This document shows, piece by piece, positions 19,381 through 24,550 of a DNA stretch of 64,000 nucleotides. The stretch is from Flavivirga sp. 57AJ16 (GTDB lineage Bacteria > Bacteroidota > Bacteroidia > Flavobacteriales > Flavobacteriaceae), in NCBI RefSeq assembly GCF_028736925.1, contig NZ_JAQZAT010000008.1, forward strand, positions 168,000-231,999. The letters are read 5' to 3'. The notes under the pieces were generated by a model. It was not told where the DNA came from. It searched no databases and worked only from the letters and a program-made list of their open reading frames with translations. The number at the start of each line of letters is the position of its first letter. Position 1 is the first letter of the stretch. A program made the position numbers and the translations under genes.

Positions 19381-22300
19381 TTATTTTTTCATCACCTTTA
19401 CATTCATTTCCTCAACTTTTTTATCTGATAAAACAGAAGGCGCACCAAATAATAGATCTTCACTGGTTCCCGTTTTTGGAAACGCCATGACTTCACGAAT
19501 AGATGTTTTTTTCTCTAATATCATCATCAATCTATCAACTCCCCAAGCAATACCGCCGTGTGGGGGTGCACCATAATGGAAAGATTTATACATCGTACCA
19601 ACGCTTTTAAGCATGTCTTCTTTGTTGTAGCCCATATTTTTATAGGTAGCTTCTAAAATTTCAGGCTTATGGGCACGAACAGAACCACCTCCAATTTCAT
19701 AACCGTTTAAGATAAGGTCGTATTGTTGTGCAATAATACTTCCTATTTCCTCTTCTTTGCCGTCCATATGCTTGTCGATATGATGAATGGCAGGCATTGA
19801 AAATGGATTATGGGTAAACGTCCAACGACCTTCATCTGTTTTTTCAAACATGGGGAAGTCTATTACCCAAGCAGGTCTTAGTTCCTTTGGGTTTATTAGG
19901 CGTAACATGCTGCCTAATTCTTGGCGAACAGCATCCAATGCTTTATTGGCCGTTGCATAGTCTGCGGCAGAGAAAAATACAATATCACCAGCCTGAGCGT
20001 TGGTTGTTTTAATGATGCCAGCAGCAATGTCTTCACCTAAAAACTTAATAATTGGTGACTGCAGATCATTTTCATTAACAATAATATATGCCAAACCACC
20101 TAAACCGTGCTGTTGCGCAATAGCTGTTAATTTTTCTATTTGCCCTTTTGATAAACGCTTCTTTCCTTGTTCTTTGGCAGAGATCTTAATACATTTTACG
20201 ATACCTCCTTCTTCAATAGGTTTACTAAATACTTGGAAGGTCGTGTCTTTTACAATATCTGTAATATCCTGTAGTTGTAATCCAAAACGCAAATCGGGTC
20301 TATCGCAGCCATATTTATCCATGGCCTCTTTATAGGTAATAACTTCAAACGGATGTAAAATCCATTTTTTACCATAAATTTTCTTAACAATGTCATTGAA
20401 CATGTTCGTGTTCAAATCTATAATTTGCTGCATGCTGGCATATGCCATTTCTATATCCAGCTGCGTAAATTCTGGTTGGCGATCACCACGAGAATCTTCA
20501 TCCCTAAAACAACGTGCAATTTGGAAGTATTTTTCGTAACCGCTTACCATCAACATTTGTTTAAATTGTTGAGGGGCTTGTGGCAAGGTATAAAAAGCCC
20601 CGGCTTGTTTGCGGGTTGGCACTATAAATTCCCTTGCTCCTTCGTCTGTTCCTGCACTTAAAATAGGTGTTTCAATTTCCAGGAAATTTTGTTCATCTAA
20701 AATATCCCGCATTAACTTAATCACTTTATGACGGTTAATAATAACCCTGCGAACATTGTCATTTCTGTGATCTAGGTATTTATACCGAAAACGTGTGGTC
20801 TCGTTTGTTTTGGTTGCTCTCTTTATTTCGAAGGGGAGTGTTCTGGAGAGATTTAAAATCTCTAAAGAAGCTGTTTCCATTTCTATTTTCCCTGTTCGTA
20901 AAGCGGGGTTGTAATCGTCTTCTTTACGTTGGACAAGCGTTCCGGTAACAGTTATAACCGATTCTGGCTTTAATTTTACCAACTCATCTAAATTAGGGAA
21001 TGACTCTCTACTTAAACGTACTTGAAAAACTTCGTTGCTGGAATCTCGCAAATCAATAAAAATAAGCTCGCCATGATCACGAACACTTGATACCCATCCA
21101 GAAAAAGTAACATCTTCAGAAATATTTTCTTCAGAAACATCAGAAATTAAATGTGTCCTGTACTCGTCTTTTATAACAATAGGAATTTTAGGTAATATTT
21201 CTTCCTGTGCTTTGGTTGTTGGTTGTTGGTTTTTGGTTGTTGGTTGCTTAGCTGTTTGAGAGGCCCCCTGAACTTTAAACTCAGAACCTTGCAACTGATT
21301 AAGAATGCCTTCCCGAATTACTTTTCCAGAGGCACCTTTTCCAATAATGGCGATAACCTTACCAACTAGAATGCCCGCCTTGCCTTGGTTTCCAGCTTTT
21401 ATGTCATTTGCAACCGCTTCGTTTTTAGAAATTACAGTTGAAATAGCCTCCTGAATTTGAGATTCTGAGATGGTATTATTTTCAAAATACTTATTGTAAT
21501 CGAAATCCCTGTCTTTTAGATACGATGTAATGGCATTCTGGACCAAGACAGACGTTATTTTTTCATCTTTAAATAGTTGAAAGATCTCAACAAGGTGTTC
21601 AACACGGTGTATATTGGCGTATTCATCAGCAGCAATATTATTAACCAATGTCTTCGCAACGAAAGAAGGGTCTTTAAGTTCATTATTTATAGCTATAAAT
21701 GTTTTAGAACGTAACGAATCTGCTGTAAAAAACTTGGCATCTTGGGGTAATACCCCACCTTTAATCAAAATGGACTCCACGGCGTAGGGAAGTGTGCTGG
21801 TATCCACTTTAATGGTACTTACAACTTCTTTAATAGAAACAAAAGGTAAGTCTGGCTCTGAAATAAACCGATAATCGGCCTCAAACTCTTTTTTACGCAT
21901 TGTTTTGGTTTGCTTTAGTTCAGCATCCCATAAAACGGTGGTCTGTTCTGGTCGAAACTCTTTGTGTTCTATATAATAGTTGAATTGTTTTTCAACCTCT
22001 TCCTTTAAAGCCTCTACCATAAACTTAAACGAGTTTAAGTTTTTAATTTCGGTACGTGGGTTTAAATTGTAACTGTGTTTTTTACGAAGCGATACAGATA
22101 CATCCGATTTAAACTCGCCCTTTTCAAGATTAGCTTCAGATATCTTTAGGTTTTGAACAATACGTTGAATGTATTGTGCATAGGTTGACGCGTCTTCAAT
22201 ATGACGAATGCAAGGCTCGGTCACAATTTCAATAAGTGGTACCCCTGCCTTATTAAAATCGACTAAGGATACTTTTTTTTCATGCACCAATTTGGCTGCG

Positions 22301-22719
22301 TCTTCCTCAATATGCACTTGCGTTAAATTAACGGTAAATTGAGAGCCATCATTTCTAAAACAAGAAACTTGTCCGTCTGGTATAATGGGGTTATGAAACT
22401 GCGTAATCTGAATGTTCTTCGGGTTATCCGGGTATTCATAATGTTTCCTGTCCCAGGAAATGACGTCGTTTTCAAAGGATGATTTTACTGCTTTTCCAAA
22501 ATAAATAGCTTTGTTGATCGCTTCTTTATTAATGGCAGGTAAAACGCCCATTTGTCCTGTGCAAACAGAACAGATATTCTCGTTTGGTGTTTCTATTTCT
22601 TGGTTTGGACAAGAACAAAACAACTTGGTCTTCGTATTTAACCGTACATGTGTTTCCAGTCCGATTACCAATTCTAACTCGTGGGCTTTTAATGCGGTGT
22701 CTAATTGTTCCAAATCCAT
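19381..22719 (-). CDS. gatB/aspS: Fused GatB amidotransferase subunit and aspartyl-tRNA synthetase
   Basis: One 1112-codon frame encodes two enzymes. Residues 1 to about 478 are GatB (ELVIGLETHVRLNTKTKLFC, GVPLIEIVTEPCI, and the tail LVGKVIAIIGKGASGKVI). Residues about 510-1112 are a complete bacterial AspRS (anticodon-binding GWVSSVRDHGELIFIDLRD, class II motifs FRDEDSRGDRQPEFTQLD and GVDRLMMILE, and a GAD insertion). The linker at about 480-508 contains QPTTKNQQPTTK and is encoded partly by a heptamer repeat. AspRS charges tRNA with Asp, and GatCAB then amidates Asp-tRNA(Asn) or Glu-tRNA(Gln). GatB starts with TAATG overlapping the gatA stop. I believe such fusions are annotated in related flavobacteria. 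Confidence 0.95.
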   Translation of the reverse strand: MDLEQLDTALKAHELELVIGLETHVRLNTKTKLFCSCPNQEIETPNENICSVCTGQMGVLPAINKEAINKAIYFGKAVKSSFENDVISWDRKHYEYPDNPKNIQITQFHNPIIPDGQVSCFRNDGSQFTVNLTQVHIEEDAAKLVHEKKVSLVDFNKAGVPLIEIVTEPCIRHIEDASTYAQYIQRIVQNLKISEANLEKGEFKSDVSVSLRKKHSYNLNPRTEIKNLNSFKFMVEALKEEVEKQFNYYIEHKEFRPEQTTVLWDAELKQTKTMRKKEFEADYRFISEPDLPFVSIKEVVSTIKVDTSTLPYAVESILIKGGVLPQDAKFFTADSLRSKTFIAINNELKDPSFVAKTLVNNIAADEYANIHRVEHLVEIFQLFKDEKITSVLVQNAITSYLKDRDFDYNKYFENNTISESQIQEAISTVISKNEAVANDIKAGNQGKAGILVGKVIAIIGKGASGKVIREGILNQLQGSEFKVQGASQTAKQPTTKNQQPTTKAQEEILPKIPIVIKDEYRTHLISDVSEENISEDVTFSGWVSSVRDHGELIFIDLRDSSNEVFQVRLSRESFPNLDELVKLKPESVITVTGTLVQRKEDDYNPALRTGKIEMETASLEILNLSRTLPFEIKRATKTNETTRFRYKYLDHRNDNVRRVIINRHKVIKLMRDILDEQNFLEIETPILSAGTDEGAREFIVPTRKQAGAFYTLPQAPQQFKQMLMVSGYEKYFQIARCFRDEDSRGDRQPEFTQLDIEMAYASMQQIIDLNTNMFNDIVKKIYGKKWILHPFEVITYKEAMDKYGCDRPDLRFGLQLQDITDIVKDTTFQVFSKPIEEGGIVKCIKISAKEQGKKRLSKGQIEKLTAIAQQHGLGGLAYIIVNENDLQSPIIKFLGEDIAAGIIKTTNAQAGDIVFFSAADYATANKALDAVRQELGSMLRLINPKELRPAWVIDFPMFEKTDEGRWTFTHNPFSMPAIHHIDKHMDGKEEEIGSIIAQQYDLILNGYEIGGGSVRAHKPEILEATYKNMGYNKEDMLKSVGTMYKSFHYGAPPHGGIAWGVDRLMMILEKKTSIREVMAFPKTGTSEDLLFGAPSVLSDKKVEEMNVKVMKK
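21212..21246. repeat. Heptanucleotide repeat inside the GatB-AspS linker (5 x TTGGTTG)
   Basis: Five 7-bp units (one reads TTGGTTT) encode residues about 492-503 of the fusion protein. The unit differs by one base from TTAGTTG, the intergenic array unit at 11950-12068. In coding sense it is CAACCAA, which has no stop codon in any frame. Confidence 0.9.
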
Positions 22720-24119
22720 TATATCGTGTCTTTTAAGAAGTTAGCAAACTTCAAAACGAGTTCGTCATTATTTTTTGCTGCTGTAACCTGTAAGCCTGTT
22801 TTTGTACCTTGAGGAATGGTCAAGGTTGGTAATTGTCCTAGACTAAAACCGACCGTATAAGCATCAGATAAATACATAGCTAAAGGATCTTTTAAACTAG
22901 CTCCAATTTTAGGTGGTGTACTAGGTGTAACAGGGGATAAGATAATATCCACTTGCTCAAAATCTTTTTCAAAGTTTTCAGAGATTGAATCCCTTAAAGC
23001 AAGACTTTTTAAATAGATTTCATCAGAAAACCCTTGAGATAATACTTGGTTTCCACCAACAATTCTGCGTTTGGTTTCTTCCGAAAATTTCTCAGACCGT
23101 GTTATGGCGTAAGATTCCTTTAGGTCTTTATTGTCGATGCGGTCACCATAATTGGTGCCATCTAAACGTGATAGGTTAGAAGCTGTTTCTGCCATAGCCA
23201 AAGTATAGTAAGTAGAAACCAAAATATCAGATTTAAAGAAATCCAGTTCTTTAACTTCAATGCCTTTTGCTTTTATTTTTTCTATGGATGCTAAAAAATC
23301 ATCTTTAATTTGAGCATCAATCGCTTCGCTTTCAATAAAGTTTTTAAAATAACCAACCGTTTTAATGTCGGCGGCATTTAAAATACTTTTTTCTTCAATA
23401 GTTTTAGACGTGTATGTTGTTTGGTCTTTTGTATCCTTACCGCTCATCGTATTTAAAACAATACGAATATCTTCTACAGATTTAGCTAAAGGGCCGACAC
23501 AATCTGTTGATGATGCGTAGGCCATTAAACCATAACGTGAAATACGTCCGTAAGTTGGTTTTAAGCCATATATGTTATTATAACCAGCTGGTTGACGAAC
23601 AGAGCCTCCTGTATCGCCCCCTATAGAAAAAACAGTATAATCTTTAGCGACATTTACGGCAGAACCTCCACTAGAGCCGCCACCAACTAATTCTGGGTTT
23701 ATAGCATTTTTAACGGCTCCAAAAATAGTGTTTTCACTAGAGGACCCATGACCAAAGCTATCACAGTTTTCTTTTACAATTGGGATAGCACCTGCATCCA
23801 ATAGTTTTTGAATGGCCGTAGCGGTATATGCCGATTTATAATTTTTCAACAAGTCTGAACTTGCTGTTGTATAAGTGCCCTGAAGCATGTAAACATCTTT
23901 AATGCCAAACGGGATGCCTTCAAGCAAACCAATAGTTTCACCATTTGCAATTTTGGTATCTACCTTGGCTGCCCGTTCTAAAGCTAATTCGGTTAATAAA
24001 GAGTTTACGGTGTTGTTAGTGTTCTCTTTAAGCAGGTTTAATTTTTCCTGAACCAAGCCGGTACAAGATATTTTCCTGTCCATCAATTGCCGATGGAGGT
24101 GTTGTATCTGAGATTCCAT
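22719..24119 (-). CDS. gatA: Asp-tRNA(Asn)/Glu-tRNA(Gln) amidotransferase subunit A
   Basis: The 466-residue protein is an amidase-signature enzyme with the catalytic Lys in PFGIKDVYM (about residue 74), the Gly/Ser-rich segment GGGSSGGSAVN with cis-Ser, and the nucleophile Ser in GGDTGGSVRQPAG. It releases ammonia from Gln for transfer by GatB. The start codon follows the gatC-like gene by 3 nt, and the stop overlaps the GatB start (TAATG), giving tight coupling. Confidence 0.97.
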   Translation of the reverse strand: MESQIQHLHRQLMDRKISCTGLVQEKLNLLKENTNNTVNSLLTELALERAAKVDTKIANGETIGLLEGIPFGIKDVYMLQGTYTTASSDLLKNYKSAYTATAIQKLLDAGAIPIVKENCDSFGHGSSSENTIFGAVKNAINPELVGGGSSGGSAVNVAKDYTVFSIGGDTGGSVRQPAGYNNIYGLKPTYGRISRYGLMAYASSTDCVGPLAKSVEDIRIVLNTMSGKDTKDQTTYTSKTIEEKSILNAADIKTVGYFKNFIESEAIDAQIKDDFLASIEKIKAKGIEVKELDFFKSDILVSTYYTLAMAETASNLSRLDGTNYGDRIDNKDLKESYAITRSEKFSEETKRRIVGGNQVLSQGFSDEIYLKSLALRDSISENFEKDFEQVDIILSPVTPSTPPKIGASLKDPLAMYLSDAYTVGFSLGQLPTLTIPQGTKTGLQVTAAKNNDELVLKFANFLKDTI

Positions 24120-24122
24120 AAT

Positions 24123-24395
24123 CTATGCATCTATAACTTTAGAAACTACTAAATAGCCATCTTTCTCTTTTGGGAAATTGTCTTTAATGATTTGTTTTTC
24201 CAAAGCAGAACTTTCAATTACTACATCATCTCTCAAATTATTTAAAGACACGCCATTATTATGATTGTTATTAAAGGAGGAGGTATTATTTGTTGCCTGT
24301 GCATTTTTAATCACGTCAAATAATTTGCTCACTGCCTCAGAAGGTTGGGCTCCTTTAATGCTCGACAATACGTCGACTGTCATAATTTTACTCAT
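24123..24395 (-). CDS. gatC: Divergent GatC-like subunit with Asn-rich segment
   Basis: The 90-residue protein ends NNLRDDVVIE...FPKEKDGYLVVSKVIDA, which matches the C-terminal part of GatC (LRxDxV...EDGYFxVPKVI). The usual N-terminal helices are not recognisable; instead residues about 32-53 are Asn-rich (NNTSSFNNNHNNGVSLNN). Position directly before gatA supports a GatC role in stabilising GatAB. The start is the ATG at 24395; an ATG four codons later is possible. An attenuator-like leader precedes it. The GatC name is an inference from the C-terminus and context. Confidence 0.72.
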   Translation of the reverse strand: MSKIMTVDVLSSIKGAQPSEAVSKLFDVIKNAQATNNTSSFNNNHNNGVSLNNLRDDVVIESSALEKQIIKDNFPKEKDGYLVVSKVIDA

Positions 24396-24417: not shown

Positions 24418-24447
24418 AAAAAAAGCCTTCCGAATTCGGAAGGCTTT
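24418..24447 (-). terminator. Leader terminator (attenuator) upstream of gatC
   Basis: On the minus strand the perfect palindrome AAAGCCTTCCGAATTC... (24447-24422) is followed by seven T residues, and ends 23 bp before the gatC ATG. It therefore sits in the 5' leader rather than at the end of a gene. Its 5' arm (AGCCTTCC, 24445-24438) can alternatively pair with GGAAGGTT at 24472-24465. Confidence 0.88.
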
Positions 24448-24477
24448 ATATATTTTTAGACAATAACCTTCCCGATC

Positions 24478-24525
24478 CTAAAAATTAGGATTATTGAAAT
24501 TATTATTGTTATTGTTTTTTGTCAT
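24478..24525 (-). CDS. Asn-rich leader peptide of the gatC operon
   Basis: A 15-codon frame, too short for ordinary gene finding, encodes MTKNNNNNNFNNPNF and stops with TAG at 24480-24478. Nine of 15 codons are Asn (AAC or AAT), six in succession. It begins 18 bp after a -7 promoter element and is followed 5 nt after the stop by GGAAGG, which can pair with the terminator arm. A ribosome ending at the TAG would cover that segment and favour termination; one stalled at Asn codons would leave it free. This is the classical layout of a leader peptide controlling an amino-acid-charging operon. Translation is inferred. Confidence 0.8.
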   Translation of the reverse strand: MTKNNNNNNFNNPNF

Positions 24526-24542
24526 AAAACTTTATCTGTCGT

Positions 24543-24550
24543 CAAATATA
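24543..24550 (-). promoter_or_regulatory. Bacteroidota -7 element (TATATTTG) for the gat operon
   Basis: TATATTTG on the minus strand ends 17 bp before the leader ATG, so the transcript would start about 10-15 nt before it and include the leader and terminator. No TTG is seen at the ideal -33 distance. Confidence 0.6.

Follow-up and report, generated by a model that had tools for sequence, protein, structure and literature searches.

A leader upstream of the gatC-gatA-gatB/aspS operon of Flavivirga sp. 57AJ16 probably acts as a ribosome-mediated transcription attenuator that senses Asn-tRNA(Asn) and turns the operon on when this product is scarce. The element is conserved. Its ORF, its hairpins, their conservation and the gene content of the operon are all established at the level of sequence, and they support the attenuation interpretation that an earlier note had offered for this DNA. 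With distinctly less confidence, we favor a broader reading, in which a large clade of Flavobacteriaceae would have given up asparagine synthetase and would combine a covalent GatB-AspRS transamidosome with a ribosome-mediated attenuator that is the first to use Asn codons. In such a system, the product, the signal and, via the ribosome, the switch would all be charged tRNA(Asn).

We infer that the leader is translated, that ribosomes stall on it, and that transcription either terminates within it or reads through. When Asn-tRNA is sufficient, a ribosome would reach the UAG stop codon and cover GGAAGG in region 2 of the leader; with region 2 covered, region 3 would pair with region 4, and transcription would stop short of gatC. 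Under a shortage of Asn-tRNA, the ribosome would halt on the Asn codons and break the protector hairpin formed by regions 1 and 2; region 2, once freed, would pair with region 3, and RNA polymerase would read through into gatC. If there were no translation, the 1:2 and 3:4 hairpins would form together and lead to termination.

Layout and predicted folds of the leader

All of the features described here are encoded on the minus strand of the window, by which we mean the whole 64-kb stretch of DNA that was analysed. The earlier note had placed a -7 box, an Asn ORF, an antiterminator arm and a terminator before gatC, and this layout agrees with the minus strand base for base. The box, TATATTTG (24543..24550), is of the Bacteroidota type, which has the consensus TAnnTTTG. 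Seventeen nt separate it from the ATG (24525) of the leader ORF, MTKNNNNNNFNNPNF (24478..24525), the 15 codons of which, nine of them Asn, translate as M T K N N N N N N F N N P N F and are followed by TAG at 24480-24478. Five nt beyond this stop codon lies GGAAGGTT (24472-24465), which can pair with AGCCTTCC (24445-24438), a segment that also has a perfect partner in the terminator stem. The predicted intrinsic terminator (24418..24447), recognized from sequence, fold and covariation, consists of a perfect GC-rich stem, AAAGCCUUCCG/CGGAAGGCUUU, at 24447-24422 and a run of seven T at 24424-24418; the ATG of gatC (24395) is found 22 nt downstream. When the 250 nt before gatC were subjected to dinucleotide shuffling, an ORF (ATG, 8-30 codons) with nine Asn codons arose in 0 of 5000 shuffles, the maximum being seven, and a scan of both strands showed the leader to be the sole ATG ORF of 8-30 codons with at least seven Asn in the window.

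The minimum free energy (MFE) fold of the 108-nt leader RNA (-30.9 kcal/mol, z = -6.3; equally low values in 0 of 200 shuffles) contains, together with the terminator, a long protector hairpin that was absent from the earlier note. In this fold the Asn codons contribute region 1, ACAAUAAU (24502..24509), whose partner is GUUAUUGU in region 2; UUUC pairs with GGAA, and AUCCUAA pairs with UUAGGAU across the stop codon, the latter forming an AUCCUAA-UUU-UUAGGAU hairpin (24475..24491) that is evident from both the MFE fold and the alignment. The protector hides the antiterminator arm in the MFE fold and, as modeled, this third hairpin between the Asn codons and that arm completes the classical 1:2 / 2:3 / 3:4 scheme. 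Fold and alignment together define region 2, GGAAGGUUAUUGU (24460..24472), as the 5' arm of the antiterminator, and region 3, AUAAAGCCUUCC (24438..24449), as the segment that would be used either by the antiterminator, with region 2, or by the terminator, with region 4.

With the 5' part of the leader removed, an effect expected of a ribosome sitting on the Asn codons, and the 3' arm of the terminator not yet made, GGAAGGUUAUUGU is predicted to pair with AUAAAGCCUUCC at -9.6 kcal/mol. A simple model, in which a 12-nt ribosome edge was assumed, left the antiterminator intact (-9.6 kcal/mol) when the A site was placed at the tried codons between 4 and 14; moving the A site to the stop codon left no more than -2.1 kcal/mol. 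In the full-length leader, the terminator won energetically at every ribosome edge; because it is always favored once its 3' arm is present, antitermination would depend on the order of folding during transcription. Folds of 89 single leaders gave median energies of -12.6 kcal/mol for the protector, -10.0 kcal/mol for the antiterminator and -16.3 kcal/mol for the terminator.

Occurrence and conservation of the leader

We searched for GatA in an even sample of the family, comprising 199 genomes and mostly one per genus. A close GatA (at least 76% identity) was present in 32 of them, hereafter gat+, and the rest had at best distant amidases; in addition to these 32, one genome (G124) yielded only 31 GatA residues at a contig edge. 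Two of the gat+ genomes fall outside the set of 30 loci, one of the two being cut by contig ends. The leader was found in 21 of the 32 gat+ genomes and was missing from the other 11, suggesting that leader control is dispensable. In ten of the leaderless loci, an ORF of 8-30 codons containing five Asn was absent from the 400 nt upstream of gatC, and the leader model R1 gave no match better than E 0.99; the eleventh leaderless genome (G180) had neither an Asn ORF nor a model match. Of the 11 leaderless loci (L009, L012, L015, L022-L026, L028, L030 and L209), most carry another promoter-like stretch, AACTTTCGTAATTTT, before gatC. On the GatA tree, leader presence required at least seven changes, a value as low as which was reached by 70 of 500 shuffles, and only 3 of the 27 inner branches were starred, so that gain and loss of the leader are not separable.

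A covariance model applied to 397 family genomes returned 37 strong matches (at least 88 bits), and gatC lies downstream of each, as checked for 35 of them in one set and for G051 and G134 (L005 and L021) in another. At E 0.01 at least one match was returned by 159 of the 397 genomes; the many matches of 46 bits or less were set aside as AT-rich noise, and a 54.9-bit match in G114 (L091) was dropped, being weak and having no Asn ORF. Scanning 84,980 species genomes with an exact DNA motif yielded 83 stretches. Among the 80 matches listed, gatC was the next gene in 79, at a distance of 97-268 nt downstream, and the 80th locus ends with the available sequence. The same 80 include 16 named genera (Algibacter, Polaribacter, Tamlana, Confluentibacter, Flavivirga, Seonamhaeicola, Snuella, Mariniflexile, Aestuariibaculum, Hyunsoonleella, Gaetbulibacter, Jejuia, Flaviramulus, Yeosuana, Aestuariivivens and Tenacibaculum), the others being titled by family alone or, in two cases, by Bacteroidia alone. 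Model R1, applied to 296 genomes of the order, gave three matches at E 1e-6, all within the same family. Reading of the DNA upstream of asnS in the Flavivirga genome revealed no Asn leader there.

The short Asn-rich ORF, whose conservation the earlier note had proposed to test, is kept among flavobacterial relatives: 88 distinct leaders contain a mean of 8.9 Asn codons. All 88 have an in-frame start (87 ATG and one GTG), and they comprise 15 (69 leaders), 14 (17 leaders) or 16 codons (two leaders), ending in TAG. The promoter box is likewise shared, with TAnnTTTG or TAnnCTTG occurring within 40 nt upstream of the leader start in 86 of the 87 distinct leaders for which enough upstream DNA was available, compared with 4.8% of base-shuffled controls; the distance from box to start was most often 17 nt (37 of 86 leaders).

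Codon changes were counted along a gatA tree whose 79 tips are the leaders with a usable gatA, with codons numbered relative to the TTC codon. In the four core codons, -6 to -3, there were 2 changes at the first position, 10 at the second and 41 at the third, with 10 amino-acid changes, and their variation consists mainly of swaps between AAC and AAT. Codon -7 is free to vary (8, 22 and 22 changes); it changed 41 times as a codon and 28 times as an amino acid. The invariance seen at codons -1 to +3 and at the stop codon arises in part because the 88 leaders were gathered by an exact DNA motif that covers them; these codons do vary in two matches found by the model only (CCT to TCT in L048, and AAT to AAC in L096). 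Codon -2 (6, 7 and 1 changes) is now Arg in a Polaribacter-type group, in which L105, L122, L131, L144 and other leaders carry CGT at this codon, and GGTTGTTG replaces GGTTATTG in most of them. Together, the Arg codon and GGTTGTTG constitute a lineage-specific retuning of the predicted protector hairpin.

Helix statistics were obtained from alignment A2, which has 88 distinct rows. The earlier note had staked its reading on conservation of the Asn codons and of both alternative pairings, and the pairings proved to be conserved as well, with standard pairs in 96.7% of 1056 cells for the antiterminator and in 97.3% of 968 cells for the terminator. The compensatory changes that it had proposed to look for in relatives were seen in the terminator, where both-side changes occurred at three pairs and in 37 cells, a count lowered by the misalignment of some rows at this helix (e.g., L105 and L117); the cell count and the score were reached by 0 of 500 shuffles, and the number of such pairs by 14 of 500. 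For the antiterminator, by contrast, the pairing is kept (sliding the helix by 1-3 columns leaves 38-65% paired), but covariation over the 88 rows did not go beyond that of shuffles. The 17 pairs of the protector behaved in the same way, with 98.3% of 1496 cells paired, 40-59% after sliding by 1-3 columns, and covariation not beyond shuffles over these rows. Neither helix gives a covariation signal because the columns hardly vary. Within the hairpin over the leader stop codon, the five consensus pairs of CCUAA/UUAGG are 99.8% paired and four of them are invariant; the simple model works without this hairpin. In the motif-selected leaders, the stop codon is UAG throughout and the next base is a G.

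Alternative readings and related systems

Region 1, made up of Asn codons, pairs with region 2; codons -1 to +3 are invariant at the DNA level among the motif-selected leaders, and a Phe and a Pro codon are retained. These features would suit a translation-coupled attenuator that reports general ribosome traffic (or proline, or phenylalanine) and in which the Asn codons are kept for RNA pairing. We consider such an arrangement unlikely, as the core codons -6 to -3 vary mostly by AAC/AAT swaps, with 41 changes at the third position and 12 at the first two together; in addition, codons -6 and -5 take no part in the protector pairing of the window's own fold, and the codon matches the product of the operon. 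Somewhat less probable still is a fixed partial terminator that sets basal expression, the leader ORF being either a relic or translated without regulatory effect. The terminator is indeed the most stable helix of the full fold, and the whole element is missing in some relatives, but 96.7% of antiterminator cells and 98.3% of protector cells are kept paired, and the Asn codons of the ORF are maintained over 16 named genera.

A T-box, in a study of 2012, reportedly lets the charging of tRNA(Asn) control a tRNA-dependent amidation operon in C. acetobutylicum via transcription termination, so that a T-box, or another riboswitch binding tRNA or a ligand directly, has to be weighed here too. We regard it as highly improbable. 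The conserved part of the element is a reading frame, with no aptamer-like core, and no T-box was found between 24300 and 24700 at E values up to 1, the best listed family being Phe_leader, whose 36 bits fall short of its gathering score of 55. Known RNA families in general, the T-box included, were rejected, as none reached its Rfam gathering score in the window; Phe_leader and Thr_leader remained sub-threshold.

The classical ribosome-mediated attenuators are the trp, his, phe, leu, ilv and thr leaders. The Asn-sensing attenuator that we favor resembles them in its short ORF rich in codons for the product, in its protector, antiterminator and terminator hairpins, and in a stop codon sited so that a finishing ribosome would be predicted to cover the antiterminator arm. 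It differs from them in its Asn codons, its Bacteroidota promoter and the lack of an Rfam family at gathering score, and also in its regulated genes, which yield an aminoacyl-tRNA through amidation instead of a free amino acid. With the T-box of C. acetobutylicum it shares the control logic for a tRNA-dependent amidation operon; there, however, the RNA binds tRNA directly, whereas here we propose a translating ribosome on Asn codons. If this reading is true, the set of amino acids sensed through leader-peptide attenuation would gain Asn, and such control would extend from the synthesis of free amino acids to synthesis on tRNA. Two bacterial groups would then control tRNA-dependent amidation alike through different RNA devices, and the leader would offer a testable case of tight transcription-translation coupling in Bacteroidota.

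A search of the open-licence literature found no Asn leader peptide in print. A study of 2010 is said to treat attenuation of amino-acid and aminoacyl-tRNA operons, and could include an Asn leader. In Flavobacterium psychrophilum, a member of the same family, strong clues are reported that operons for amino-acid biosynthesis are preceded by leader-peptide attenuators (PMC9723704); neither "asparagin" nor "gatC" occurs in the main text of that paper. Leader ORFs in Bacteroidota are treated in general terms in PMC7366714 and PMC4833913.

The operon and the supply of asparagine

Profile searches identified the operon genes as the earlier note had named them, namely GatC, GatA and a GatB-AspRS fusion, with the scores of GatC and GatA under the NCBIfam cut-offs. 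The gatC product (24123..24395, minus strand; 90 aa, with an Asn-rich loop) scored 21.6 bits with TIGR00135 (cut-off 47.1) and 20.4 bits with PF02686, both under cut-off. For gatA (22719..24119, minus strand; 466 aa), TIGR00132 was the best match at 434.7 bits (cut-off 481.1), and PF01425 gave 371.7 bits, over its cut-off. The gatB-aspS fusion (19381..22719, minus strand; 1112 aa) exceeded the NCBIfam cut-offs for both NF004012 (398.3 against 338) and NF001750 (713.2 against 443). It joins GatB (residues about 14-477) to a complete bacterial-type AspRS with a GAD domain (about 519-1112), and is a candidate for a natural covalent transamidosome.

The fusion is present in all 32 gat+ genomes (the G170 copy being cut at a contig end), each of which also has a second AspRS of 37-44% identity. 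It occurs, moreover, in a second family of Bacteroidia, in nine genomes at 58-68% identity (10 of 295 including the Flavivirga genome, with the two best candidates per genome scored); eight fusion loci of that family gave no leader model match and had no 8-30-codon ORF with at least five Asn in the 400 nt before gatC. NCBI already names the fusion "bifunctional amidotransferase subunit GatB/aspartate--tRNA ligase AspS", an example being that of Flavivirga spongiicola (93% over residues 200-800), and our literature search found no papers on a GatB/AspS fusion.

The fused AspRS is predicted to put Asp on tRNA(Asn), and GatCAB would amidate the resulting Asp-tRNA(Asn). We take the His of an RDHG motif to mark a non-discriminating AspRS, together with a second marker, Gly, in whose place the fused enzyme has Asp. 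RDHG is present in the fused AspRS and in 30 of 30 fusions read, as it is in the Asp/Asn enzymes of P. aeruginosa and mycobacteria (PDB), while the AspRS of E. coli and Thermus have RDLG and the other AspRS of the Flavivirga genome has RDKG. The fused AspRS is a candidate for a non-discriminating enzyme, which would place Asp onto tRNA(Asn). The genome has one tRNA(Asn), with anticodon GTT and an acceptor stem that, read by eye, is TCCTTCT/AGAAGGA followed by G73. Its first pair is U1-A72, which bacterial GatCAB needs according to PMC4206432.

The match between the proposed sensed product and the regulated enzymes, which the earlier note had argued, is supported, with one amendment: the genome has an AsnRS, so GatCAB-AspRS is not the only means of charging tRNA(Asn). 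AsnRS scored over cut-off in 197 of the 199 family genomes, this one among them, and GlnRS was found in 11 of 11 genomes tested and in the Flavivirga genome. In the latter (99.94% complete) there was no AsnA match, and the best match to the AsnB model scored 62.9 bits against a cut-off of 267.1. As no asparagine synthetase was found, the operon is better read as one for asparagine biosynthesis on tRNA. We compared 64 genomes, picked as 32 gat+ and 32 gat-. Neither AsnA nor the common two-piece AsnB was found in any of the 32 gat+ genomes, whereas 29 of the 32 gat- genomes have the two-piece AsnB and the remaining three carry AsnA; the two-piece AsnB was also found in 0 of 17 further leader-bearing genomes. 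Another AsnB-type protein scored over cut-off in 11 of the 32 gat+ genomes, the Flavivirga genome not among them, and in 7 of the 17 further ones, which limits any claim of an only route to this genome. Here, with AsnRS present and AsnA and AsnB not found, transamidation is predicted to be the only route to new asparagine: the operon would make new asparagine, and AsnRS would re-use free asparagine. If true, this points to the fused GatB-AspRS as the route to asparagine in these bacteria.

In PMC4206432, AsnRS and GatCAB are reported without asparagine synthetase in Bdellovibrio, Deinococcus and Thermus, and the same pattern of gene content in 18 genera, Bacteroidetes included. The Flavivirga genome is like the three named genera in having AsnRS, GlnRS, GatCAB and a tRNA(Asn) with U1-A72, with no AsnA or AsnB found. 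It differs from that survey in that the extra AspRS is of bacterial type and fused to GatB; among the 18 genera, a second AspRS is given for Deinococcus-Thermus only, and is of archaeal type (PMC4206432).

GatC is itself rich in Asn, so that a shortage of Asn-tRNA should also slow translation of the first gene of the operon. Its Asn-rich loop is NNTSSFNNNHNNGVSLNN in the Flavivirga genome, and all 30 GatC sequences read (L001-L030) contain 8-15 Asn (median 12), whether the leader is present or absent.
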